The position numbers and the translations under genes were made by a program. This document shows, piece by piece, positions 24,101 through 62,056 of a stretch of 64,000 bases of DNA; the first letter of the stretch is position 1; every line of letters starts with the position of its first letter. Source of the stretch: Asterochloris sp. CNOR1. Taxonomy: Eukaryota; Chlorophyta; Trebouxiophyceae; Trebouxiales; Trebouxiaceae. A model generated the notes under the pieces. It did no database searches and was not told where the DNA came from. It worked only from the letters and a program-made list of their open reading frames with translations. The DNA lies in NCBI GenBank assembly GCA_963969365.1, contig OZ017747.1:2976001-3040000 (forward strand). Reading direction: 5' to 3'.

Positions 24101-27100
24101 GAGTCTGCTGTCTCAGCCTTGGGAGGATACAGACAAAACGGTGGTTAGCGTGCCGACTGGGGCAGAGGAGCAGCTTGCAGCCTTCGAGCGGACCCTGTCG
24201 CCAGAGCCTGTTGAGGCGCCAGATGCCATGGTGCATGAGCCACTGGCTGGGGCAGAGCTGCAGCAGCAGGCCTCCCTGCCACAGCCTTTGGAGGGAGCCG
24301 ATGCGGTGCTAGATGATCTGCTGGCAGGCAATGAGGTGCCAGAGCCTGTAGAGTCTCAGGAGGCCACCCAGCTGCGGCCAGGGGAGGGGACTGATGAGGT
24401 GCTGGACGATGCTTTGGCTGGCAGTGAGGTGAAGCGGCCTTCACATCCCAAGCAGGCCTCGCAGCTGCTGCCTGGGGAGGGGGCAGATGAAGTGCTGGAC
24501 GGTCTGCTGGCCAGCAGTGAGGCGCGACAGCCTTCACGGTCCCTGCAGGCCTCCCAGCTGCCACCTTGTGAGGGGGTTGATGAGGTGCTGGATGACCTGC
24601 TGGCTGGCAGCGAGCAGCAGCCTGAGACACAGCCACAGGAAATGCATGTCAAGCAATTCACTTTGCCACAAGGCAGGTCTGACAAGGATCATGCAGAGGT
24701 GCTGGCCTCTGCAGCAGCAGAGCCTGCCAGCAAGACCTGTACTGCTGTGGCTGTGGACTTGGCAGGGCCGGCTGCTGCCCCTGACAGTCCGCGGCTGGCT
24801 GCTGAGTCTGTGGGGCAGTCAGTGCAGCCCCAAGACTCGCTGCCCCATCAGGTAACAGCTGATGCAGTGATCGGCGAGCTCATGCAGGAGGCTGCAGCAG
24901 AAGAGCATGCCACTGTGCCCTCTGCTGCTGCAGCTGTGCAACTCACACCAGGCCAACTCACAGGGCCTGGTGCTGCCCATCCCAGCCAGCAGCCGGCTGC
25001 TGAGACTGGCTCTGAGGCTGCTGCCCCCCATTCCAGCCTGCAGCTGACTGCTGAGTCTGCCCCAGAGGCTGCTGAGTCCGCAGACTGCACACCAGCCCAG
25101 CTTCAGGGATTGCTGCCCCACCAGGTTGCAGCTGACACGCTCGTCGACGAGCTCGTGCAGCACGCTGCTGCAGCCGAGCAGGAGGCTGATGATGCTTTGG
25201 AGGGCCTGCAGGGCAGGGCTCCCCTGCAGCCCTGCCAGCTCCAGCAAGCAGGGGGCCATGGGCACAGCCAGCCCAGCAGGGACCAGACCCTGGAGCATTC
25301 AGAGGCAGCACCTGTCCCTGCTGCTCCTTTGCCCTGCACTGGGTCAGCAGCTGAGCAGGTCTCCTGGCTGCAGCATGCAGCAGAGGGCGATGGAGTGCAC
25401 AGCAGCCCTGCTGGCCAGCCAGCAGCATGTCTGGGGGTGGCGGCTGAGCAGGCGCTGCTCAGGACTCCAGTCGCAGCAGTGCCTGATGCAGCGTCGGGCA
25501 CAGGGCGGCCACGCCGTGTCACCAGCACGGTAGAGGCTGTGCTGGATGGACTTGTCACAGGAGTGAGTGGCTTCATGCAGTGCACTGAAGTGTCTGCAGA
25601 GCTCCCATCATGCGATCAGCAACAGAGGCAGCCACGATCATCGTTCTGAGGGAAGGGCTGGGCAGCAATGCCGCCGTTGCGCTGTTTGCTACAAGAGAGC
25701 ATGCCCAGAGCACAATCCTCACTGCAGCTGTGGCGCTCCCCTGCTTCCCAGGGTTGACTTGCAGAAGCTTGCCTGGCGTGCTGCCCTTGCCAACACACAG
25801 CCTGAAACGTGGTTCTCATCTGCAGGTGGAGCAGGCCCCAGCCTCTGGACAGCCTGCAGTTGCAGGCACACTTGCCCTTGAGGAAAGAAGTGTGCCTGTT
25901 GCTGTGGGGGCCGCCAAAGCCAGCCCTGTTTCTGATGTGCACAGCCCCAAATTGTCAAGCAGGGCCCCTGCGGAGAACCCAGCCCAGCAGATCCTGGAGG
26001 ATCCTAAATTTAGCCAGGTGACGTGTAGGAAGCTGGTCATCCCAACACAAGGTTGCTTCATGATGGACAGCCAACCTGCTCGTTGTGATGTGCTGCGCCT
26101 GGTGTCAGGCAGCCATGCGTGGCAGTGGCACAAATGGGTCTGCTGCAGATGGCGACTCTTGATGCATTTGCTGGCCTGACCACGTGCAGGTGAAGCAGAC
26201 CTTTGAGAAACATATCGGGCGACGGAGGGCCGTCAGCGCAGGGAAGACCAGCATGGGCATGGGCTCTGCAGGTGAGCAGCTGCTGGACTGTCTGGACTTG
26301 CTCAGATCTCGAAAGGTGTCCTGTGTTGGCCCCGGCTCACCCAAGACACGTGTGCCGGGCTCGCCCATGATGTCTCAACAGGCTCACCTGAGAGACGCAC
26401 CTCACCCGCAGGTCCGCCAATTCAGTCTGAAGTAGACAACCAGGAGGCGATCGACCCTGCTGTGCACACCATGGTGGGACATGCACTCAGTCAGGCAGCC
26501 GCTTCCAAGCCAGCAGCACCCGCAGGTCCAACAGTTCAGTCTGAAGTAGACAACCAGGAGGCAATCGACTCTGCTGTGCACACCATGGTGGGACATGCAG
26601 TCAGTCAGGCAGCCGCTCACAAGCCAGCAGGCTCGGCACCAGGTGCATCAGCCAAGGCTTCCGCACAGGCAGCTCAGGGTGTCTACACCTTGCAGGATTG
26701 CTCTGCGAAGAACTCTGATGACAGCCAGGTGTGAAGCTCTGCATCTGCACATGTAGCATGTCCAGCAGCCTTGAAACTTTCATGAGGCTGTGTGCCATGT
26801 TGCTTTTGCTGTTGCCAGGCACGTCCCAGGCAGTGGCCATGTGCAACATGGCAGCTGGACTTACATTCGTACTGCATACTTTGGGAGCATGATGCTGCAT
26901 TACCAAGGGCATAACCACCCCCAGAAGAAACCAGACATTCCGCCATGTGTATCCCGCAGGCTGTAGAGGAGGACGTGGGCAGATGCGGCAGAGCCTCTGG
27001 AGCCCCCTCACAGGCTGCTGCCTCGGCTCTGGAGAGCAGCTCTGAGCCTGAGGTGCCAGCGCACACTCAGGGTGCCCGACGGGAGAGCGCTGCAGGGGAT

Positions 27101-27906: not shown

Positions 27907-29993
27907 ATGAAGAACCACAAAATGGGGACCCATGAGCTGTTCGCTGAGATTGGGGATCCGGGGAGTGAAGACACCTTCCAGGTGCGACTGCAGCACAGTT
28001 GCTGCCACGGCATGCAGAGGCAGCATACTTTGGGTGCAGCTGCAGCAAAATGCTGCTTTCGGGGCCTGGCAAGCACACATGCGTGGCTGGGCACAATCAG
28101 AGGCAGACGTTCCACTGCCTGGCAGCCTGCTACTTTCAGGCTCTGCCTGCACACACAACATTTACAACAACGCATGGCTGGGCAGGCGATGGAACCCTCC
28201 GCCCAACAGGGTCCTACAAGCTGCTGTAAGCAGCAGCAGCTCCCCCCCAAGCAAAGCCCCTGAGCAGCAATAGCTGCGATGCATGCAACAAAGTTATCCC
28301 TCCTTCCTGACCCTGCAGGATCTGGACTTGGAATCACCACAGAGGATCAAGGCGCACAACCCCAGGAACCCCTCCAGCAGGTGTCCCAGCAACTCCCCAG
28401 GCAGCGCTCGGGCGCAGGATGAGGGGGACGCCCCCTCGCCCCTGAAATATAAGCGCATCAGAGCTGAACGCCAACCGCCACTATCTGAGGATCAGAAGAC
28501 ACGGCGCAGGTACGCCATGCTCTTTGATTAAGCTGTGCACAGGCCACATTGGCATGCAGCGCAGCCAATCAGAGAGGGGGAGAGAGAGTGTGAGTAGATG
28601 GAAAGGGCGTGGGAGTACGGTGTGCTGCAGATCTGCTGACCTGGCATGCCTCAGCCCGCCGCCTGGGCGCCGCTCATGGCTGGCCCACCCGCTGCATGTC
28701 ACCTGTCTGCAGCGCTGCTCACAGCTGCAACGAGCTGCAATGAACCCTGGCCGCCCAGACAACTTGTAGAATCCCATCTGCACAGCAACAACAACCCCCA
28801 TGCAGCAGTAAGAACCCTGCTTGTCGATGCACTGCACCAAGCTGCTACCGCCTGCTGCAGCCCAGAGTTCTGAGCCCTCGCCTGTGGGCCCTGCGGGTGG
28901 GAGGGCAAATGCTCTGCTTCCAGCCACACTGCCACAGAGCACCTGCAGGCTGCCAGGCAGCCCAGCAGCACCCCCCACCCCCCTGGCTGCAGATGTGAGG
29001 TCAGGAGCAATGCCAACTGCCTCTAGCACCGCCTACAACCAATGCCTGCAGCTACCTGTGACAGTACTGAGCCTGCCCCCCCCTTTGGGGCCCTGCAGGC
29101 GTGAGGGCAACCGCAAGGCTGCTGCCCGGCTGCGTGCCAAGCGCCAGCAGACGCTCCATTCCCTGCAGAGCCGGTGCAGCCAGCTGGAGAGCGAGTGCAG
29201 CGGCTACGCCTCTCAGATCCGCACCCTGCTGGAGTACTGCCGCAGCATCCTGAGCGAGAGCGCCTTTCTCAGGCTGCAGCTTCAGATGGTGGGCTGGGGC
29301 GTGCCCAGCAGCCAGCCCCTGGAGGACGGTATGAGCGCGGAGGCCCTGCTCAAGCAGGTGGGGGTTTGCCCAGGCTGGGGGCTCTTGGATGAGTGAAGTG
29401 CCTGCGGCCCTGCTCCAGCAGGTGGGGGTCAAGGTGGCTGGGCAGGCCTGCACATGTGAGGTCTCCTCCACACAGAGCTTGCTTTCTGGAAGACAGCATG
29501 AGCCCTGAGGTCCGGCTCCAGCACGTGAGTACGCCTGTGGGGCAAGGCCCCTCACCTGTGTCCACTGACTTTGTGGGCTTTGTGTGGGGCATGTTGCAGC
29601 AGCACAACACTGAGGCCTGTGCAGTTGCCCAACAATCTGCGCGGCACAGCAATATTGCAAGGCTGGATGGGCAGGCCACCACCCCACTCCTTTCCCAGGC
29701 AGCCACCTGTGTTGGCTGCATGGCAAGCGCCTGCTGTGATCTGCCATCACTGCTGCCTGCAGGCCCTGCTGGCCACCTCATCCTGCTGCGATCAGGAGCC
29801 CTCTGCCAGCGGTGCACTACTGGAGGCAGCCAGCGCTGGCCTCCCCATGCAGCTCCCAAGCATGAGCTCTCTGACGATGCCAGCACTGCCCACCTTCGCT
29901 GGCACCACTGATGCCCTGCTGCCCAGCACGAGGGCTCTGACACCCCTTATCGGCCCAGCCCCTTCAGCCGCTATCCCTGGGGCGGGTTTCTGA
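27907..29993 (+). CDS. bZIP transcription factor (intact basic region)
   Basis: Four exons join in phase to about 251 aa: 27907-27981, 28319-28509, 29099-29357, 29763-29993. The basic region, split by an intron after TRR, reads RRREGNRKAAARLRAKRQQ and has the canonical N-x7-R DNA-contact spacing. Nine residues later a leucine zipper follows with heptad positions L, L, Y, L, I, L (through QSRCSQLESE, ASQIRTLLEYC and ILSESAFLRLQ). A Ser/Pro/Leu-rich tail (LPMQLPSMSSLTMPALPTF) could be a regulatory domain. Expected to act in the nucleus as a dimer; its target is unknown. It faces a paralogue tail to tail (30531-32604), with which it shares exon structure around the basic region. Confidence 0.88.
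29343..29532 (+). repeat. Repeated copies of a bZIP exon end and its donor site
   Basis: The 3' end of the bZIP zipper exon (GACGGTATGAGCGC through CTCAAGCAG|GTGGGG, ending 29357) has a partial copy at about 29407-29430 (GCCCTGCTCCAGCAGGTGGG) and a more diverged copy at about 29489-29530 (GACAGCATGAGCCC through CTCCAGCAC|GTGAGT). The last would read LEDSMSPEVRLQH beside the true LEDGMSAEALLKQ. The intronic copies look like decayed or optional exon ends. Confidence 0.55.
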
Positions 29994-30530
29994 AAGAACC
30001 TGACCCTGCCCCTGGCACCCGCAATCCTGGCTCCCAGGCCCAAGAGGGATTTTCAGCTCAAGCTAGGCAGACACCGGTCCCCAGCTCCCTATAACCATAC
30101 AGCATGACAGCACTTGCTAATGCAGCCCTGTGTTGCTGCGTCCTAAGGCACAGCTGCCAGCCTGCTGCAATATCTGTTGCAGGCTGGTGTCTGGCTTGGC
30201 TGTAGGCATGCCACATGAGCGGGACTGTGCCACAAGCAGCAGGGAATCAAGATCATTAAAGAGCACTGTACCATGATGCACTGAGGATTTGATCAATTGC
30301 TGCAAGTATTTGGCAAGACATAAGAAAATGACTTCAGGAGAGTTCCAGATGGCTGCTGCTTCCCCTCAACTTGATGGGCCCCAAGCAGCATACTGCAGAT
30401 GTCAGGAAGGGTTCTGGGTTGAGGCCCAGCCTGTGCGAGGGCACCGTTCAATGCTCAGACTAACAGATAACGGGAGACAATGAGCAAGAGACACACACAG
30501 AGAGGCAAGGAGGCTGCTGTTGTAGCTCCT
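29994..30530. other. Convergent gap between the two bZIP genes
   Basis: 537 bp between the stop codons of the two bZIP genes. Only short, unconvincing ORFs are present; no repeat, RNA gene or TGTAA signal was recognised on the expected strands. Confidence 0.5.
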
Positions 30531-32604
30531 TCACAGGACAAGACACATGGGTGGTACCTTCAGATTCTTTTTGGCTGGCTGCCCCATCAACTCAGTCCTG
30601 TTGGGATGTATATGCTGAGGAGAAATAGGCTCAGGAGATGAGGGCCCGGCGCTGAATGGATTGACAGGCAACATCAGTGTGACGACAAAGTCATCAGTGC
30701 TGGACAGATGTGGACATCTTATTGGCAGACTCTCAGGCATGCAGCTGCCATAGCAGGGGGCCCTTATGCCGCTCCTACAAGAGGCTTACAGCTGCATGTT
30801 ATGGGGCCCAAATCTCCTTGCATGCCGCACTGGTGGCAGTAGCCAGCTGCAGCAGGTCATGGCTCGATCCAGCTGCAGCTCAGGCTTCAGGGGTAGACGT
30901 GCGGGGGCATGCCTGCGAAGGACGACACATGCAGCTGCAACGACGGGCCTGGGTGTGCAGAACCCTGCACCAAGCAGGCGCAGTGCGAAGGTTGCTTGTT
31001 GTTGCTTGGTGACTGATGGCAGGCAAATTGTCCCCCAAATGTGAGCAGGCCCCAGCACAGCGTGGAACCCAACAGGCAGCAGTACAGCAGAGGGGGGCTG
31101 CTGATACCTGCAACCCACTACATAGCAGGCGGATGCACCCCTTGACCGGCGGCACAAGCACTGCATACACCCTGACCTGCAGCAGGTGAGTGTGTGCATC
31201 GACCCTCATCTGGTGCCCCCCCCAGACCTGCAGCCCCATCTGTCCTTGCTGCATCTGCAGCTGCTGGCGCAGCAGCTGATTTTCCAGCAAGATCCTCTCG
31301 CAGCAGGAGGACAGCTGTCGGACTTGACCTGCAGGAAGCAGCCAGGTGAGCGCAGCAGCTTGCCTGCAGCTGAGCAGGCACATGCATGCAGCTGACTTAG
31401 AAGCAGCAAGCTTTGCAGCAGTATGTCAGCGTCTTAAGGCTTTGCTGCCATTCACAGCAGCTGGTGCACGGCAAGCGAGCTTAGCAGCAGCCTACCAGCT
31501 CTGAGGTTAGACGTCAACAGCTTCCTCAGCCAGCTGGTGATGGTGCATGTGCAGCTGCCCATGGACATGCAGCAGGCTCAGCAAATGGTCTGCCTTTGGG
31601 CTGACAGCTGGTGGGCCACAGTATACTTTTGAGGCACAGACAAGAGCAAGCATTGCAGCAGGATGCCACACAGGGGAGGGCCATCTAGTGAATTGCCTGA
31701 GCTCACCCAAGTAGTTCTGACTGCTGGACTGGAGCATACCACTCCGCAGGCAGCAATGGAGCCAGCTCAGGCTGGACAAGGAATAAGCTGGTCGTGCAGC
31801 AGGGTGCTGATGCTGCGGAGGCAATAAGTGAGCTGGCTGAGTCGGCAAGGGAAGGTCAAGAGGTGCAGCAGAATACCCAAGCCGTGCCTGCGGCCATGCG
31901 TCCTGCTCAGACTTAACCATGTGCAGAATGCAATGGGCTGCAGGTTGCAGCAGGGCACTCAGACTCAAGCAGACACGCCCCGCACTGCCAGGGGGACCAG
32001 GCCACAGCAAGGTGCCCAAGCTGTGCACTGGTGCACGGGCTTGCCTCCTGCTCATACTGCTGCACCCGCGACTGCAGCGCCTGCACCTCTGCCTGGCGAC
32101 GCATGCACAGCCTGGCAGCTGCTTTCCTGCTGCCCTCCCTCCTGCAAGACAGGCAGGGGCTGTGGATTGCCAGCACGCAGAGGTTGCAGTGGAAGATGCC
32201 CTGTGCAGTGCGCAAGGCATATGGGGGCACGGTCGCCTCAGCACAGGCAGCGCCTGATGCCAGCTGCTCTCTGCGGTAGGCTTGGCAAGAAGCAGGACTC
32301 CACCAACTAGCATGCATGAAGGCAGCAGGGCCCCTTCGATCACAGGCTTCTGGGCAGACAGGGCACGCTGTGCGGCCTGCCTGCGCATCTGGCGCTGCAC
32401 ATCGTCCAGAGGGGTCCTGTGGGTGCGCCCTGGGGATGCGCTCCCGTTCCGCTCAGGGGTACGTTCACGTCCTCCAGTCCTCTGGAGCGTGCCCTGCATG
32501 CCACTGACATTAGCAGCTGTCAAACGCTTCACCGCACTCCAGAGGCGCCTGCCATCAGCTGATCGTGTCCTCATCCAGGGTGTCATGGCATACAGGTAGG
32601 GCAA
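30531..32604 (-). CDS. Degenerate bZIP paralogue, DNA-contact residues lost
   Basis: Minus-strand gene homologous to the bZIP at 27907. Exons: 32381-32604 (ends LDDVQRQMRR, in phase with the next), 32029-32141 (REGSRKAAARLCMRRQAEVQ), 31177-31328 (QVRQLSSCCERILLENQLLR then QQLQMQQGQMG). The zipper aligns with the paralogue without gaps. In the basic region the invariant Asn is Ser and the paired Arg eight residues on is Cys; the zipper also carries a Pro (EASPCTS). The first intron has a GC donor (AG|GCAGGC at 32380) at the same place where the paralogue has GT. The last exon, 30531 to about 30690 (LMLPVNPFSAGPSSPEP), and anything between it and 31177 are tentative. It may still dimerise but probably cannot bind DNA normally; decay toward a pseudogene is the alternative. 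Confidence 0.72.
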
Positions 32605-37941: not shown

Positions 37942-39024
37942 TCAGCGAATTTTTGCACCATCCGGAACGTCAGCTGTTACACAGCCCCTGTCAGTGACCA
38001 GTGGCTCCTTCTGGAATGTGGCTTTGCCATCCATCACGATCAGGTCAGGCGCAAACCCTCGCCAAAGGTCTGACTTCAAGGTTTTGGGGTATGACTGTGG
38101 ACAATTCCTGCTGCGGTACAGCTTGTCTCCAGGCTGGGAGCCCTCTGCAGCACCGACTTGCAATCAGGTAACAACTTGCATTGTCAGAAATGGCAAGCTG
38201 GGAGCTGGCTGGCAGAGGTTGCTCAAGGGAGCCCAGGGTTGATTGCAACCCCTCAGCAAGTGCTTGTGGTGAGTCCAGAATCAAGTGCTTACAGCAGGCT
38301 GATGGCAGGAGGGGCAAGCACAGGGACGCTTCCGCACATCTGTGGGGGGGCAGGTCTACGAGAAAACAGTGATGTCGCAGGAGACTGAGACCAGAGTGAG
38401 CATCATTAAAGCAAGGTGGCGGCAGCCCACCTGGTGGTCTAAGCAGTCTCACAGAGGGCGCAGGCCCTTGCAGCACCTCGGCAGCAAGCACCATAGCCTC
38501 AGACATGACCCCTGCCAGCTTGGCAGGCTTGAGATTGAGGATGGCCACCACAAGGCTGTCCCGCAGCTGCTCTGCTGTCACAAACATCTTCAGGCCAGCG
38601 ACCACCTGCCGTGTCTCGTTACCTCCCACATCTAGCTGCAGTTTGTACAGCTTTTCAGACGGAATGGATGAGCCGTCAACAGAGAGGACTCTGGCCACCT
38701 GCAGCAGCATGGACTCTTCTAAACAAATTTTTGCTTGACAATTGTCACAGAGCTAGCAGGCTGGCACCGAGATCTAGGAGTCATGAATACCTGCAGATTG
38801 GCCTTGGCGAAGTCGTCGCTTGGCCGAGCGCCTGCTGCAGGTGGCTTGCTGCCTTTGCCTGCTTTGACCGCTTTGGCAGCCTTGATCTGAGGCTCGACTG
38901 CTGGCGCCAGCTGCTCGTGTGTGTCAGCTGCCTCAGAGCCCTCTTGCAGCAGGATGCTCAAGTCCTCGAGCAGATGGTCAATGTGCTGAATTGCCTCGTC
39001 TAAGATGGTCATGCCTGCTATCAA
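37942..39024 (-). CDS. AIMP1/EMAPII-type tRNA-binding domain protein
   Basis: Minus-strand gene with the OB-fold tRNA-binding domain found in AIMP1/p43, Arc1p and the C-terminus of plant methionyl-tRNA synthetase. Exon 38791-39024 encodes a helical N-terminus (ILDEAIQHIDHLLEDLSILL), an Ala/Lys linker and DDFAKANLQ. The next exon, from 38698, continues VARVLSVDGSSIPSEKLYKL, VGGNETRQVVAGLKMFV, VVAILNLKPAKLAGVMSEAM. A last exon near 37942-38150 gives PGDKLYR, then YPKTLKSDLWRGFAPDL and the end VTADVPDGAKIR. The joins between about 38150 and 38470 are unresolved. Likely binds tRNA and delivers it to an aminoacyl-tRNA synthetase. No synthetase catalytic domain is present, so it is a stand-alone cofactor. 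An in-frame ATG at 39012 is an equal start candidate. Confidence 0.85.
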
Positions 39025-47600: not shown

Positions 47601-48734
47601 CCATCCTGAGCCTTCATGAGTGCAGGCTGCTGCTGATCTGGTGGCACGGTGCTACTGCAGATTCCTGACTGACGCCATCAGTGAAGTGAGCATCCAGTCC
47701 GGGCTCAGCCAGGCCTTCCTGGGGCTCATCATCCTGCCTATCGCTGGCAATGCATGCGAACATATCACAGCCGTCTTTGTGGCTTACAAGGTGGGTTGCA
47801 GGCTGCACCCTGCACCCTGCAGTGACAGTGATGCCGCCCTCCTTAAGCTGCGCCTGCACACATCATGGGGAGCCCTGCACCTGTCCACCTATCATTCAAT
47901 GGCAGCGATTCCACCTGGAGTGCAGGTCTCGAGATGCTGCTCACAAGTCCTGCCTACACACCATGTGGTTCCTGGGCAGCATCCAGGCTGCTATCACTAT
48001 GTCCCTGCCAGCACGGCCTGTACTCACCACTCACACCTTGCAGGACAAGATGGATTTGGCCATTGGCGTGGCTCTCGGGTCCAGCATCCAGATTGCCATC
48101 TTTGTGCTGCCCCTGGTGGTCATCATTGGCTGGGCCATTGGCAAGCCCCTCACACTGGACCTGGACCCCTTCCTAATCATGATCCTGACGCTGAGCGTCA
48201 TCCACGCCAACTTTGTCTCCAGCGATGGCCAGTCCAATTGGTGGGTGCCCTGCCACTGCAAGTACCTGTCGTCGGCTCCTCCAGGCACATTTAGCTGAAG
48301 CGGTGCTAACAATGGGGTTGTGGCTGCCTGGCGGCTTGTACAGCAATCAGGAGCTCTGCTTCGATGCTGCTGTGCAATGACTGAGGAAAGCTGATGGCTC
48401 TGTGCAGGCTTGTAGGCGTACAACTCATTGGTGAGGCCCTTGCACACCACCTGCCGATCATCTGCTCATGCAGTTCCAGGGTGCCCTGGCAATGCATGCT
48501 GCAAGCCATGCTGACTGCATCAGCTTTGCTTGTTGCAGGCACTTACATCCTGATCGCTCTCTTGTTTGGCTTTCTGAGGGGAGAGCTCCATCAGGGCGAG
48601 GGCAATGCAGCCAGCACGACTGCAGCAGTTCTACAGGGTGCAGGTGAGGCCATGATGAGCTTGCGCTGGACAGAGTCAGGCGCTGTGTGCTCACCAAATC
48701 CAACCCCATTCCTGCAGGCAACACACCTGCATGA
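44621..48734 (+). CDS. CAX: CAX-type cation (Ca2+)/H+ exchanger
   Basis: Vacuolar-type cation/proton antiporter of the CAX family, moving Ca2+ (or Mn2+) into the vacuole in exchange for protons. Core exons join in phase: 45896-46140, 46326-46381, 46460-46569, 46734-46938, 47242-47385, 47661-47790, 48044-48240, 48408-48430, 48540-48644, 48718-48734. The two signature repeats are LLNATFGNVVELI and ILPIAGNACEHITAVFVA, each with the ion-binding GNxxE core, and SSLIGSILSNLLLVLG and VALGSSIQIAIFVLPL complete the two halves. An acidic loop (HKDLFAEEEGG) separates them. The C-terminus ends QGAGNTPA. Upstream 44621-44788 (MSGIHQARSALRVLHRMDEL) and 45501-45658 (PKDAEEFWDLFRAAAGKL) are soluble N-terminal exons whose mutual phase does not fit, so an exon between them is missing or the start is 45535. 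Confidence 0.9.
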
Positions 48735-58608: not shown

Positions 58609-61600
58609 GAAGAGGGGGGTCACTGCGTTGAGCTCTCATGTGTTCTCTGGAACATGCATGGCGGGCTCAACCATGCTTATAACAAGGCTGATGCTTTGAA
58701 TGACCTGCATACTTTGGACTGCACATTTATTTGTTTGACTGAGACCTGGACTGCGCCTGGGGATGCTGTGTATGACTTGCCAGGCTATGTCTGTCATGAA
58801 GTGCACCGCCCCCAGCACCTGCAGAACCGCAATGGCCCCAGGGGTGGCATTGCTGTGTACATGAAGCAATGCGTTGCTGACCATGTTAAATTTTGGAAAG
58901 CTGCAGATGACGGGACATACATTTGGCTGCACATTGAGCCGCATGGCGGTTGTACAGAGCATATTGCCTTTGCCACTTGCTACATGCCTCCTTACTACGC
59001 TAACAAAACACTGGACACTTTTCCGCAAATTGACTGCAGACATGGACAACTTTGCCAGCAGGGTGCCTGCCGGCAAGCAGCCGCACTACTGGGTGTGTGG
59101 GGACACCAATGCACACACTGGCACAGCACCAGACTTTATCAGACTCATTGGACATGGTATCTCTTCTGAAGTGCAGGCCCTTGACCAGCTTCCAGCTGAC
59201 CTGAAGACGCGCGCAAACCTCTGCACCCACAAGGTTGATGTCCGTGGCAAGCAACAGCTGGACTTCTGCAAAGACAACGAGCTGCTCATTCTCAATGGCA
59301 GGGCACCTGGCGACCCATCTGGTAAGGTCACATTTGTGGGGAGGGGCGCAGGCACCCTCATTGACTACCACATGGCCTCTGCGTGGCTGGCCAGCTGCTG
59401 CATGCAGCTGGCGGTGCTGGACATGGCCAGCGGGGCGTGCCGGGTGTGCTCAGATCACCTGCCGGTACAGGTCTGCTTCCAGCTGCCCACCACAGATGGG
59501 GAACCACCAGCAGCATCAGCACAGCAGCAGCCAGCTGCAGTCCCGCGCGTACCAGACATCAGACTTGACCCAAGTCAAACAGAGGTCTGGCACCAGAACT
59601 TTGCAGCGGTTGCAGAGCGGTTGCGGTTACAAGTTGCGGTGACAGATCCAGAAGCAGGGGTCAGAGCCTTCACAGAGTGCATTTCAGAAGCGGCCGCAGA
59701 CACCTTCCAGCTCAGACGACGGCAGCCTTTAAAAATTATGCAACGCCCACCCTGGTTTGATGAGGAGTGCCGGTATGCTTGGAGGGAATGGAAGGATGCT
59801 GAGCGCTCCCCCATTATTGTTCCTTTTGCTGCTTTGAAGCTTCGCAACATGTACAGGGCAGTGCGCCGCAGGAAGCAGCGACGGTTCATGCACCAAAGGA
59901 TGGCTGACATCGATAAGCTTGCATCGAAAAACATGGCACATTTATACCGCGTGTTTGGCTGGCGCAGGCACTCAGCTTGCCCCAGGGCGCTGCACAGTCA
60001 GCATGCACACTGGCAAAGCAAGCTGGGTGGCCGCCCAGAGCCACGAGGAATCCCTGAGCTGTTGACAGAGGACTGTCCCGGTGGGCCTGTTCCATCTGCT
60101 GCTGCCTTGAATGCACCTATCACCACCCGTGAGGTTTATGACAGCTTGCAGAAACTGAAGGGGGGCAAAGCAGCAGGGCTTGATGGCATGCCTGCAGAAC
60201 TGCTCAAGAGTGGCCCCTTCTGCATGATGGAGTGCCTCGCGAGTCTCTTCACTGCAATCCTGCATGGAAGATATCCAGAGCAGCTGAGCACTGGCCTGAT
60301 TACTGCAGTTCACAAAAAGGGAGACAAGGCAGACCTCAATAACTACCGCCCCATCACAGTCATCCCGGTTCTGGCCAAGCTATTCGCCTCTGTGCTCACG
60401 CGCAGACTGGCAGACTGGACTGAGAGGAACAATCTCAGGGCGCCCACGCAAGCGGGCTTCCGGGCCAATCGCGGCACATCAGATCAACTGAGTATCTTGA
60501 ATTACATAGTCAAGAAATGCCTGTCACAGGGGAAGAAATTGTACTGCTGCTTTGTGGATTTTGAGAAAGCGTTTGACACAGTGGACAGGGAAGTGCTTTG
60601 GGCTGTCCTGGCCAACATTGGAGTGCGGGGACAGTTCCTGAAGTGTCTGCAGAGCCTCTATGGTGTTGACTCTGCTGCAGTGAGAACTGCACAGGGCACC
60701 TCTGGGGCTTTCAGGTGCTTTCAGGGGGTACAGCAGGGGAGTCCCCTCAGCCCCCTGCTGTTCGGGCTGCTGCTTGACTGCTTGCACAAGGTCCTGAAAG
60801 CTGTGCCAGGCAATGGCGCCCCAAGCCTTGCCGATTACTGGTTCACAGCTGCGGGCCGCGAGTGGAAGATGCAAAAGCCTGTGCCGCTGCTGCTCTACGC
60901 AGACGACCTTGCCATACTAAGCACCAGAGCAGAGGGGCTACAGAACATGCTTGATGCATTGCAGGTCTTTAGCAAGAAGAGGCGCCTCACAGTGAACCTG
61001 GAAAAGACTGAGGTGCTGGTCTTTGAGCTGCGGCACACCCCCTGCCGGGATTTCACATACGGCGGGAGAGTGCTCACCCGCAAGGACAGCTTCAAATATC
61101 TGGGCCTGAGGTTCCATGCCACGCAACGGGACTTCCGCCTTGCTCTGGGGAGTCTTGCAGCTTCTGCATGCAAAGCCATGCATGCCATGCGCCGCAGATG
61201 CTTCCAGCTTGGCTATGTGCACCCCCAGCGCATGTGCAACTTGTTCAATGCATTGGTGCTGCCCATCCTCAGCTATGGCTGTGAGGTGTGGTTCTGGCAC
61301 CATGATGCCAGCAGCACAGTCACCAAAGTGCTGGAAGGCGTCCACCTCCAGTTCTTACGTGGCCTGCTGGGAGTGAAACGCACCACGCACCACTTGATTG
61401 CCCTGGCTGAGTTTGGCAGATACCCGCTTGCTGTGCATTGGCAAAAACAAGTTGACAAGTTCAGGCTGCGCATCTGCAATGTCACTCGCACTGCATCTGA
61501 CAACCCACTGTTCTGGGCGATGTTTGACGGCACACCCAATGTGGAAAACCTTAGGCTCCTGCGTACCCCTGCTGGATTTGCTGCCTTGCAGGCCCGCAGG

Positions 61601-62056
61601 AGGCCTGCCAGCGCCCCCAGCACAGAGCGCCATGAGCGGCTCTTTGCGGAGAACTCAGACAGCACCGTGGCAAAGTACAAGCAGATGCGCGGCTTCAGCG
61701 CAGCGTACACCACGCAACCTTACATCCAGCAGATCAGAGGCTACAGACTGCGCAAATCAATGGCCCATATCCGCTGCAGCAGCCACAGGCTGAGAGTTGA
61801 GACAGGCCGCTACACATCAGAAGCCAGACACGAGAGGACCTGCCGCCTCTGCACATCAGCAACCGCCATAGAAGACGAGCAACACATCTTGCTGCACTGT
61901 CCCCAGCTCAATGACCTGCGCAACGCCCACAGCCACCTATTCAAGACGCCAGGACAGACTTTGACAGACCTCTTTGATGACCATCCCCCAATTTTGCTTG
62001 CTAAGTATGTGCGTGCAGCGCTGCTTATGCATCAATCAGTGCTGCTTTTGCCATGA
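58609..62056 (+). pseudogene. LINE ORF2 (endonuclease-reverse transcriptase), frameshifted
   Basis: Frame 1 from 58609 encodes the first half of the endonuclease (LWNMHGGLN, CLTETW, FATCYMPPYY). At about 59017-59022 the meaning passes to another frame, which is open to 62056 and carries the rest: GDTNAHTG, TLIDYHMAS, SDHLPV; reverse transcriptase motifs LITAVHKKGD, NNYRPITVIPVLAKL, TQAGFRANRGTSDQ, CFVDFEKAFDTVDRE, VQQGSPLSPLLFG, LLYADDLAILS (YADD at 60896-60907), VNLEKTEVLVF, FKYLGLRF; and a terminal CRLCTSATAIEDEQHILLHC zinc-type motif. All catalytic motifs are present in one frame or the other; one extra T in the run at 59019-59022 would explain the break. The RT domain has no internal stops, so the insertion is fairly young. 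Confidence 0.88.

Follow-up and report, generated by a model that had tools for sequence, protein, structure and literature searches.

Reading of the window (the whole stretch of 64,000 nucleotides analyzed here) confirmed the convergent, tail-to-tail pair of bZIP genes that a preliminary description had placed at this location. The features, in order of transcription within each gene, are as follows.

27907..27981, plus strand: exon 1 (first coding) of the plus bZIP gene, from sequence reading; ATG at 27907, a tentative start; donor TTCCAG|GTGCGA
28319..28509, plus strand: exon 2 of the plus gene, ending PLSEDQKTRR; phase 2 donor GCGCAG|GTACGC
29099..29357, plus strand: exon 3 of the plus gene, with the intact basic region (N-x7-R) and the entire zipper; it carries, from 29099, RREGNRKAAARLRAKR; 3' end tentative
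29763..29993, plus strand: probable last exon of the plus gene, to the stop codon; tentative, from an open frame and an acceptor
32381..32586, minus strand: exon of the minus bZIP-like gene preceding the basic region; ATG at 32586, tentative; ends TPLDDVQRQMRR; donor GCGCAG|GCAGGC (GC, not GT)
32029..32141, minus strand: basic exon of the minus gene, with Asn to Ser, Arg to Cys and the proximal zipper with a Pro; it carries (32141-32029) RREGSRKAAARLCMRR
31329..32028, minus strand: 700-nt intron of the minus gene inside the zipper, absent from the plus gene; donor ACCA|GTGCAC, acceptor CTGCAG|GT
31228..31328, minus strand: distal zipper exon of the minus gene, QVRQLSSCCERILLENQLLRQQLQM; exon 3' end and gene end tentative

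The frames of the minus gene were open, and its spliced 63-codon domain contained neither a stop nor a frameshift. TGTAA was considered as a poly(A) signal for the gene ends and dropped, because it occurred 19 times on one strand of the 64 kb and 32 times on the other, about or below the hand-reckoned expectation (~34 per strand at this base composition).

The Asn and Arg of N-x7-R are the main base-touching residues of the bZIP basic region. As previously described, the plus gene retains both, and the minus gene has S-x7-C, with the substitutions exactly at the hallmark positions. The register is consistent with that of c-Fos chains from solved structures, which matched without gaps; the minus product alone gave a weak match (E 0.089). 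The plus product has Leu at +18, +25, and +39 from the Asn and scored 37.6 bits against Pfam bZIP_1, above the curated cut-off of 27.6, whereas the minus product scored below the cut-offs of both bZIP_1 (21.5 bits against 27.6) and bZIP_2 (17.9 against 22.3). In a Chlamydomonas survey, the basic-region motif is stated as N-x7-R/K, which the minus product lacks, and the 17 bZIPs of that alga show N-x7-R/K-x9-L (PMC6164503).

We found at least four further members of the same bZIP type in the genome, so that six could be placed. The genome also encodes green-type LHC proteins. Both hallmark residues were retained in all five other members (the plus gene and four paralogues), and both losses are thus unique to the minus gene among the six. 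The flanking residues had been described as kept, and 12 of 16 basic-region residues were indeed identical between the minus and plus products; the four other paralogues, however, shared 11-12 of 16 as well, and the minus basic region has diverged from that of plus no more than theirs have. Of the 9 basic-region columns that do not vary among the other five members, it keeps 7; one paralogue, C13p, itself deviates at two positions of the basic region that are invariant otherwise. When each member was left out in turn, the minus product departed at 4 of 17 otherwise invariant columns and the others at 0-2. The two substitutions are real changes at DNA-contact residues, of the kind that a CHOP-like protein would carry. 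The further claim of a disabled DNA-contact surface is something we infer, because Asn to Ser at the same position retargets the Zta protein and does not abolish its binding (PMC13228511).

The exon phases had also been taken as shared by the two genes. This was correct only for the phase-2 intron that precedes the basic exon; the 700-nt zipper intron has no counterpart in plus. Since the phase-2 intron was placed in all six members, it gives no evidence of a special plus/minus duplication. At this junction only the minus gene has a GC donor; the five relatives have GT, and it was the only GC among the 13 family junctions placed. For comparison, three chaperonin genes had a GT solution at all 15 solved junctions, although a GC option outscored GT on a crude score in two of them. 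The zipper intron requires the donor CCA|GTGCAC for the frame to hold. An alternative GC donor, GAG|GCAAGC, needed a later acceptor to keep the frame on hand reading, and was set aside because it would remove ten residues and break the heptads. The intron was also considered as a repeated mobile element, and this was rejected because the 700 nt matched only itself in a genome search that skips very common words.

The spliced plus and minus proteins aligned without gaps over 64 residues with 55% identity, in agreement with the preliminary description, and the joined minus product aligned without gaps with all five paralogues. The Pro of EASPCTS lies in an exon in this gene model, as had been reported; that it might be intron-encoded was rejected, because it is retained when the exons are joined in frame to give the product that matches the family without gaps. 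The d positions of the minus zipper are L, Y, C, L, I, L, and the Pro occupies the c position directly before the third d. Two core residues that all five other members share have changed (at an a position from Cys to Val, at a d position from Leu to Tyr), and only 5 of 11 a/d positions are identical with plus. The g/e positions were better kept (8/11 identical, vs. 5/16 at b/c/f; Fisher p 0.054), and the predicted plus/minus heterodimer retains both of the charged g-e' pairs, R-E and E-R. By these predicted pairs the paralogue C13m would be as good a partner of minus as plus, which does not support an exclusive partnership with the neighbor. A Pro within the zipper, as in the minus product, occurs also in AtbZIP34 and AtbZIP61 of Arabidopsis group E, which are treated as bZIPs with a working basic region; minus differs from them in lacking N-x7-R. 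There, according to a review, the Pro is reported to block homodimers while heterodimers with group I and group S members still form (PMC4012195). A rice protein with a Pro at the zipper start is described as precluded from dimerizing (PMC2492810). The published cases thus point both ways, and the zipper Pro is ambiguous evidence.

An origin of the pair by inverted duplication, as first proposed, was not supported. The best tree joined plus with C13p, a gene on another contig, and the tree joining plus with minus had an AU p of 0.12-0.19; sisterhood of plus and minus was neither supported nor rejected by these trees. Open frames of at least 50 amino acids from three 9.5-kb stretches, around the C13, C9, and C11 genes, were compared with the window for a shared neighborhood, and they matched it at bZIP exons only, save for one weak match of 32 residues (E 6e-4). 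Linked pairs occur twice in the genome (plus and minus on C2; C13p and C13m on C13), and in each one member lacks zipper introns (plus; C13p) and the other has them (minus; C13m). Block duplication of an old pair would be in keeping with the best tree. On this scenario one partner of the C2 pair would have become a dedicated, linked decoy or retargeting subunit for its family, and the pair a chromosomally retained activator-inhibitor module, which we regard as a long shot.

Selection was examined with a paralogue-based codon test, the nearest equivalent of dN/dS on related strains. Neutral evolution, as expected of a pseudogene, was not found: over 63 codons omega = 1 was rejected on the minus branch (2dlnL 10.4 on the tree with plus+minus, 9.8 with plus+C13p), a result that averages along a saturated branch and is blind to recent relaxation. 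Since synonymous sites are saturated, recent decay after long constraint would still be compatible with it. Whole-branch rejection was about as strong for minus (9.8) as for C9 (8.1) and plus (5.3). A zipper dN/dS near 1, named in the preliminary description as evidence against its proposal, was likewise not found (2dlnL 7.54 on the minus branch); the by-region test covered minus and plus, and rejected zipper neutrality in both (7.5 and 5.1). On the minus branch, omega = 1 was not rejected for the 15 basic-region codons (2dlnL 0.26), and the distal-zipper codons alone gave no signal (0.02); for the intact controls C11 and C13m omega = 1 was likewise not rejected. Relative-rate tests of minus against four outgroups were not significant (p 0.18-0.77). 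Polarized changes derived in minus numbered 9 in columns 1-36 vs. 2 in columns 37-64, and those derived in plus 0 vs. 6 (Fisher p 0.0023, the lowest of 15 pairs at the same cut). As polarized here, the minus-derived changes are concentrated in the DNA-proximal half, which would count for a retained partner.

We tentatively favor, short of holding it probable, the reading that the minus product is a CHOP-like partner or inhibitor within its bZIP family. On this reading it belongs to a small family of green-algal bZIPs, in which it has lost its two main base contacts and kept much of the dimer interface. If expressed, it would pair through its zipper with intact family members, the neighboring plus product among them, and perhaps not alone; such heterodimers would bind the normal site poorly, as CHOP does with other C/EBPs. 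Expression, splicing over the GC donor, dimerization, and inhibition by minus are steps that we infer. The hallmark losses confined to minus, its low Pfam scores, the open frames, and the rejection of neutrality in the zipper, and not in the basic region, argue for this reading, together with the g/e identities, the retained charge pairs, and the CHOP and AtbZIP34/61 precedents. The GC donor, the proximal-zipper Pro, the changed core residues, and the a/d identity of 5/11 weaken it, as do the equally good charge pairing with C13m, the saturated synonymous sites, the results for the intact controls and the distal zipper, and the basic-region departures of C13p. The proposal of a dimerizing inhibitor of the neighbor is partly supported: the hallmark losses on an otherwise kept scaffold and the zipper codon test fit a dimerizing inhibitor, and the specific partnership with the neighbor is unsupported. 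Quite possibly, instead, minus is no longer under selection and is a pseudogene of recent date or a paralogue in decay, whose substitutions, GC donor, and Pro are early lesions preceding any stop. Simple decay had been allowed for before, and it gains new evidence from the GC donor, restricted to minus against the uniform GT solutions of the chaperonin genes; the 4 of 17 departures, the scores under the Pfam cut-offs, and a zipper frame that depends on one donor point the same way. Against decay stand the intact 63-codon domain, neutrality rejected about as strongly as in C9 and plus and in the zipper as in plus, a basic region as close to plus as those of the other four paralogues, and the unremarkable relative rates.

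The partner reading resembles known systems in part. In CHOP (DDIT3/GADD153, a mammalian C/EBP-family bZIP), an altered basic region interrupts normal DNA binding and the zipper serves heterodimers with intact relatives (PMC5712004). Minus shares the altered basic region and, by predicted pairing, the kept zipper, although the substitutions in the CHOP basic region are to Gly and Pro, whereas minus has Ser and Cys for Asn and Arg and its Pro in the zipper; kinship is claimed only at the bZIP level. The potato mini-TGA StTGA2.1 is likewise a green-lineage bZIP relative, with no measured DNA binding, that works through intact relatives, but it lost most of its bZIP by truncation, whereas minus has a full-length scaffold with point changes at the two hallmark residues; StTGA2.1 contributes to activation, and the available part of that paper does not describe it as an inhibitor (PMC10022624). 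Zta(N182S), with the same Asn-to-Ser change as minus, shifts from TGA(C/G)TCA to TCA(C/G)TGA, in vitro as well as in cells, binding a new site rather than losing binding (PMC13228511). By analogy, minus might still bind DNA, as hetero- or homodimer, at a different site because of its Ser, and the 7 of 9 basic-region columns that it keeps fit this. It is unlikely, since Zta(N182S) is a laboratory single change and minus has also lost the conserved Arg, and a stable homodimer is less to be expected with a Pro in the zipper. Improbable too is a wrong gene model, in which the basic and zipper exons are unjoined in the mRNA or another start or splicing yields a different protein. The GC donor of the N-terminal exon, a zipper-intron donor picked for frame, and an in-frame ATG within the upstream intron (open frame 31913-32452) would suit it; the phase-2 position fits five other members and the joined product is gap-free with all five, which speak against it.

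With the plus protein alone as query, none of the pattern matches outside the genome (278 in genome_contigs, 22 in viral_contigs) was confirmed as a relative by tblastn; these collections are prokaryotic and viral, so the result says little on algae. Among the literature matches listed for bZIPs without Asn, atypical bZIPs, and tandem-duplicate inhibitors, no title named algae, which does not prove absence from print, and the bZIP papers on Coccomyxa concerned other matters by title. In the case of decay, minus is an ordinary pseudogene at an early stage. If instead it is expressed and pairs with its relatives, this green alga would have a natural bZIP inhibitor or partner of the CHOP type that arose through point substitutions at two hallmark residues and not through truncation, and the genome would also supply the intact relatives for comparison. 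It would then show how a DNA-binding factor comes to regulate the family to which it belongs.

The spliced products of the two convergent genes aligned without gaps over 64 residues with 55% identity; a gap-free alignment of the zippers had been stated in the preliminary description.

27907-29993, plus strand: bZIP gene whose basic region is intact (the plus gene), last exons tentative
32586 to about 31228, minus strand: bZIP-like gene convergent to it (the minus gene), 3' end tentative

The proposed replacement of the hallmark N-x7-R in the minus gene was confirmed: Asn is changed to Ser and Arg to Cys, and both residues were kept in all five other members found. We take these two positions to be residues contacting bases in Fos, since the c-Fos chains of solved structures align without a gap through the basic region (E 5e-5 for plus; weak for minus, at E 0.089). 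With Pfam bZIP_1, the plus gene scored 37.6 bits and the minus gene 21.5 (cut-off 27.6); the latter passed no bZIP model, while each of the other five members passed at least one.

The genome (21 contigs, 56.4 Mb in total), in which the window spans 2976001-3040000 of contig 2, was searched with Pfam bZIP_1 (24 matches at E ≤ 1, 11 above the cut-off), Pfam bZIP_2 (18 matches, 11 above the cut-off) and each of the two proteins. The basic region RRxGNRxA was found in at least four further genes, named here after their contigs.

Contig 13, 340509, plus strand: C13p, shared RRxGNRxA basic region
Contig 13, 336902, minus strand: C13m, shared RRxGNRxA basic region
Contig 9, 1397695, minus strand: C9 member, shared RRxGNRxA basic region
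Contig 11, 2077247, plus strand: C11 member, shared RRxGNRxA basic region

All six members aligned without gaps. Changes at columns invariant in the other five members numbered 4 of 17 in minus, 1 of 14 in plus, 2 of 15 in C13p, 1 of 14 in C13m, and 0 of 13 in both C9 and C11. The minus gene kept seven of the nine such columns in the basic region, the two lost being N and R, and loss of both is unique to it among the six members found. Its remaining two departures were zipper-core residues, which counts against our reading, as does the basic region of C13p, where Ser replaces the second conserved Ala and Gln stands at another otherwise invariant position; from these two changes, C13p possibly has an altered DNA specificity. 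The flanking residues were indeed kept, minus matching plus at 12 of 16 basic-region residues, but the four others matched at 11-12 of 16. Therefore, it is the placement of the changes that is unusual, not their number.

Upstream of the plus gene lie two tandem repeats with periods divisible by three (93 nt, 3.8 copies, 24264-24614; 114 nt, two copies, 92% alike, 26403-26630). Directly after its zipper, a 24-nt segment occurs three times (29337-29527, plus strand; repeat family D5), perhaps as duplicated exon ends. Elsewhere in the window were a retroelement with a 1063-aa open frame and a reverse transcriptase domain (58865-62053, plus strand; Pfam RVT_1, E 7e-35), as well as open frames at 38048-38752 (minus strand) and 47620-48291 (plus strand) showing a tRNA-binding domain (Pfam, E 1e-19) and, slightly under the cut-off, weak similarity to a sodium/calcium exchanger. 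Chlorophyll a/b-binding proteins gave 21 exon matches in the genome (E ≤ 1e-5); one fragment matched 483 distinct solved sequences, and 59 of the 60 best were named as LHC or chlorophyll a/b-binding proteins, the other being named 'multifunctional fusion protein'. We therefore regard the organism as a green alga.

An origin of the two genes by inverted duplication was not shown, nor was it rejected. Identity to minus was highest for plus (55%; 28-41% for other members), but the ML tree paired plus with C13p (bootstrap 59 for protein, 87 for nucleotide), and the plus-minus grouping gave AU p values of 0.145, 0.187, 0.126 and 0.121 in four analyses. The two genes do share the phase-2 intron upstream of the basic exon, but it was placed in all six members and thus lends no support to a special duplication. 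Counting from the Asn, zipper introns were absent from plus and C13p; C9 had one (19|20), C11 and C13m two each (19|20 and 35|36), and minus one, at residue 34, whose 700 nt matched nothing but itself in a genome search. C13p and C13m form a second linked pair, about 3.5 kb apart within 333500-343000 of contig 13, again with one member lacking zipper introns and one having them; it is head-to-head, unlike the tail-to-tail pair studied here. The minus gene may represent an older lineage closer to the intron-bearing members, each of the two contigs holding one gene of either kind.

When differences between plus and minus were polarised by the other four members, minus-derived changes numbered nine in columns 1-36 and two in columns 37-64, and plus-derived changes none and six. 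This contrast (Fisher p 0.0023) was the lowest of 15 pairs at the same cut (next 0.079); the cut was fixed ahead of counting, but the observation is post hoc, with p about 0.035 once corrected for 15 pairs, and other pairs reach p 0.007-0.03 with the cut left free. The plus gene kept the DNA-binding half and the minus gene more of the distal zipper; the zipper Asn at an a position is kept in minus and is Ser in plus alone.

Selection was assessed with a GY-type codon model (branch-specific omega, 63 codons), which compares paralogues, not strains, and averages along the whole branch, being blind to recent relaxation. For the minus branch, omega = 1 was rejected under both topologies (2dlnL 10.4 and 9.8). 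The control branches gave 15.3 (C13p), 8.1 (C9), 5.3 (plus), 2.2 (C13m) and 0.7 (C11); power is therefore low, and two intact genes, C13m and C11, did not reject omega = 1. Branch lengths were saturated, some of them reaching or approaching their bound of 30. The optimiser was imperfect, the free-omega fit of C13p (-1251.73) falling slightly under its one-omega fit (-1251.34). Tests by region covered the minus and plus branches: minus gave 7.54 for the zipper, 7.68 for columns 2-38, 0.02 for the distal exon and 0.26 for the basic region, where the omega estimate sat at its upper bound; plus gave 5.06, 2.46, 6.38 and 2.28.

Identity between plus and minus was 8/11 at g/e, 5/11 at a/d and 5/16 at b/c/f positions of the heptads (g/e versus b/c/f, Fisher p 0.054). 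The preliminary description had proposed minus as a possible inhibitor of its neighbour. Plus-plus, minus-minus and plus-minus dimers all retain both predicted charged g-e' pairs (score 4 each); C13m also scored 4 with plus and with minus, so the neighbour is not indicated as the sole partner. In the accessible text of a review (PMC4012195), Asn at a prefers Asn and Ser favours heterodimers; there, too, the zipper Pro of AtbZIP34/61 stops homodimers and heterodimers remain. In that of a survey (PMC2492810), Pro at the zipper start of a rice protein precludes dimerisation. As these precedents conflict, the proline in the proximal zipper of minus is ambiguous.

This proline also favours decay, as does the GC donor of the phase-2 intron in minus, which is GT in the five other members; 12 of the 13 family junctions placed had GT. 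As a yardstick, 19 adjacent exon pairs of three chaperonin genes were used: 15 could be joined at a GT donor with no residue deviation, three had gaps and one had no solution. In two of the 15, a GC option scored better by a crude score (deviating by two residues once, by none once), so GC is uncommon, but not shown to be absent. Given the GC donor and the Pro, and with minus known from genomic sequence alone, decay is only slightly less probable than a functioning partner. A third possibility is that minus reads a different DNA site: in the accessible part of PMC13228511, Zta N182S leads to binding of TCA(C/G)TGA. However, the conserved Arg is lost here too, and retargeting is therefore less likely, though not impossible.

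CHOP-like action appears to fit the minus gene best. As described in the accessible text of PMC5712004, the changed basic region of CHOP interrupts DNA binding and its partners are sequestered; its heterodimers are also described as recognising other sites and as capable of activation. An altered basic region is common to both proteins, and minus, if expressed, may likewise sequester partners, with impaired DNA binding. The minus gene may plausibly encode an inhibitor.
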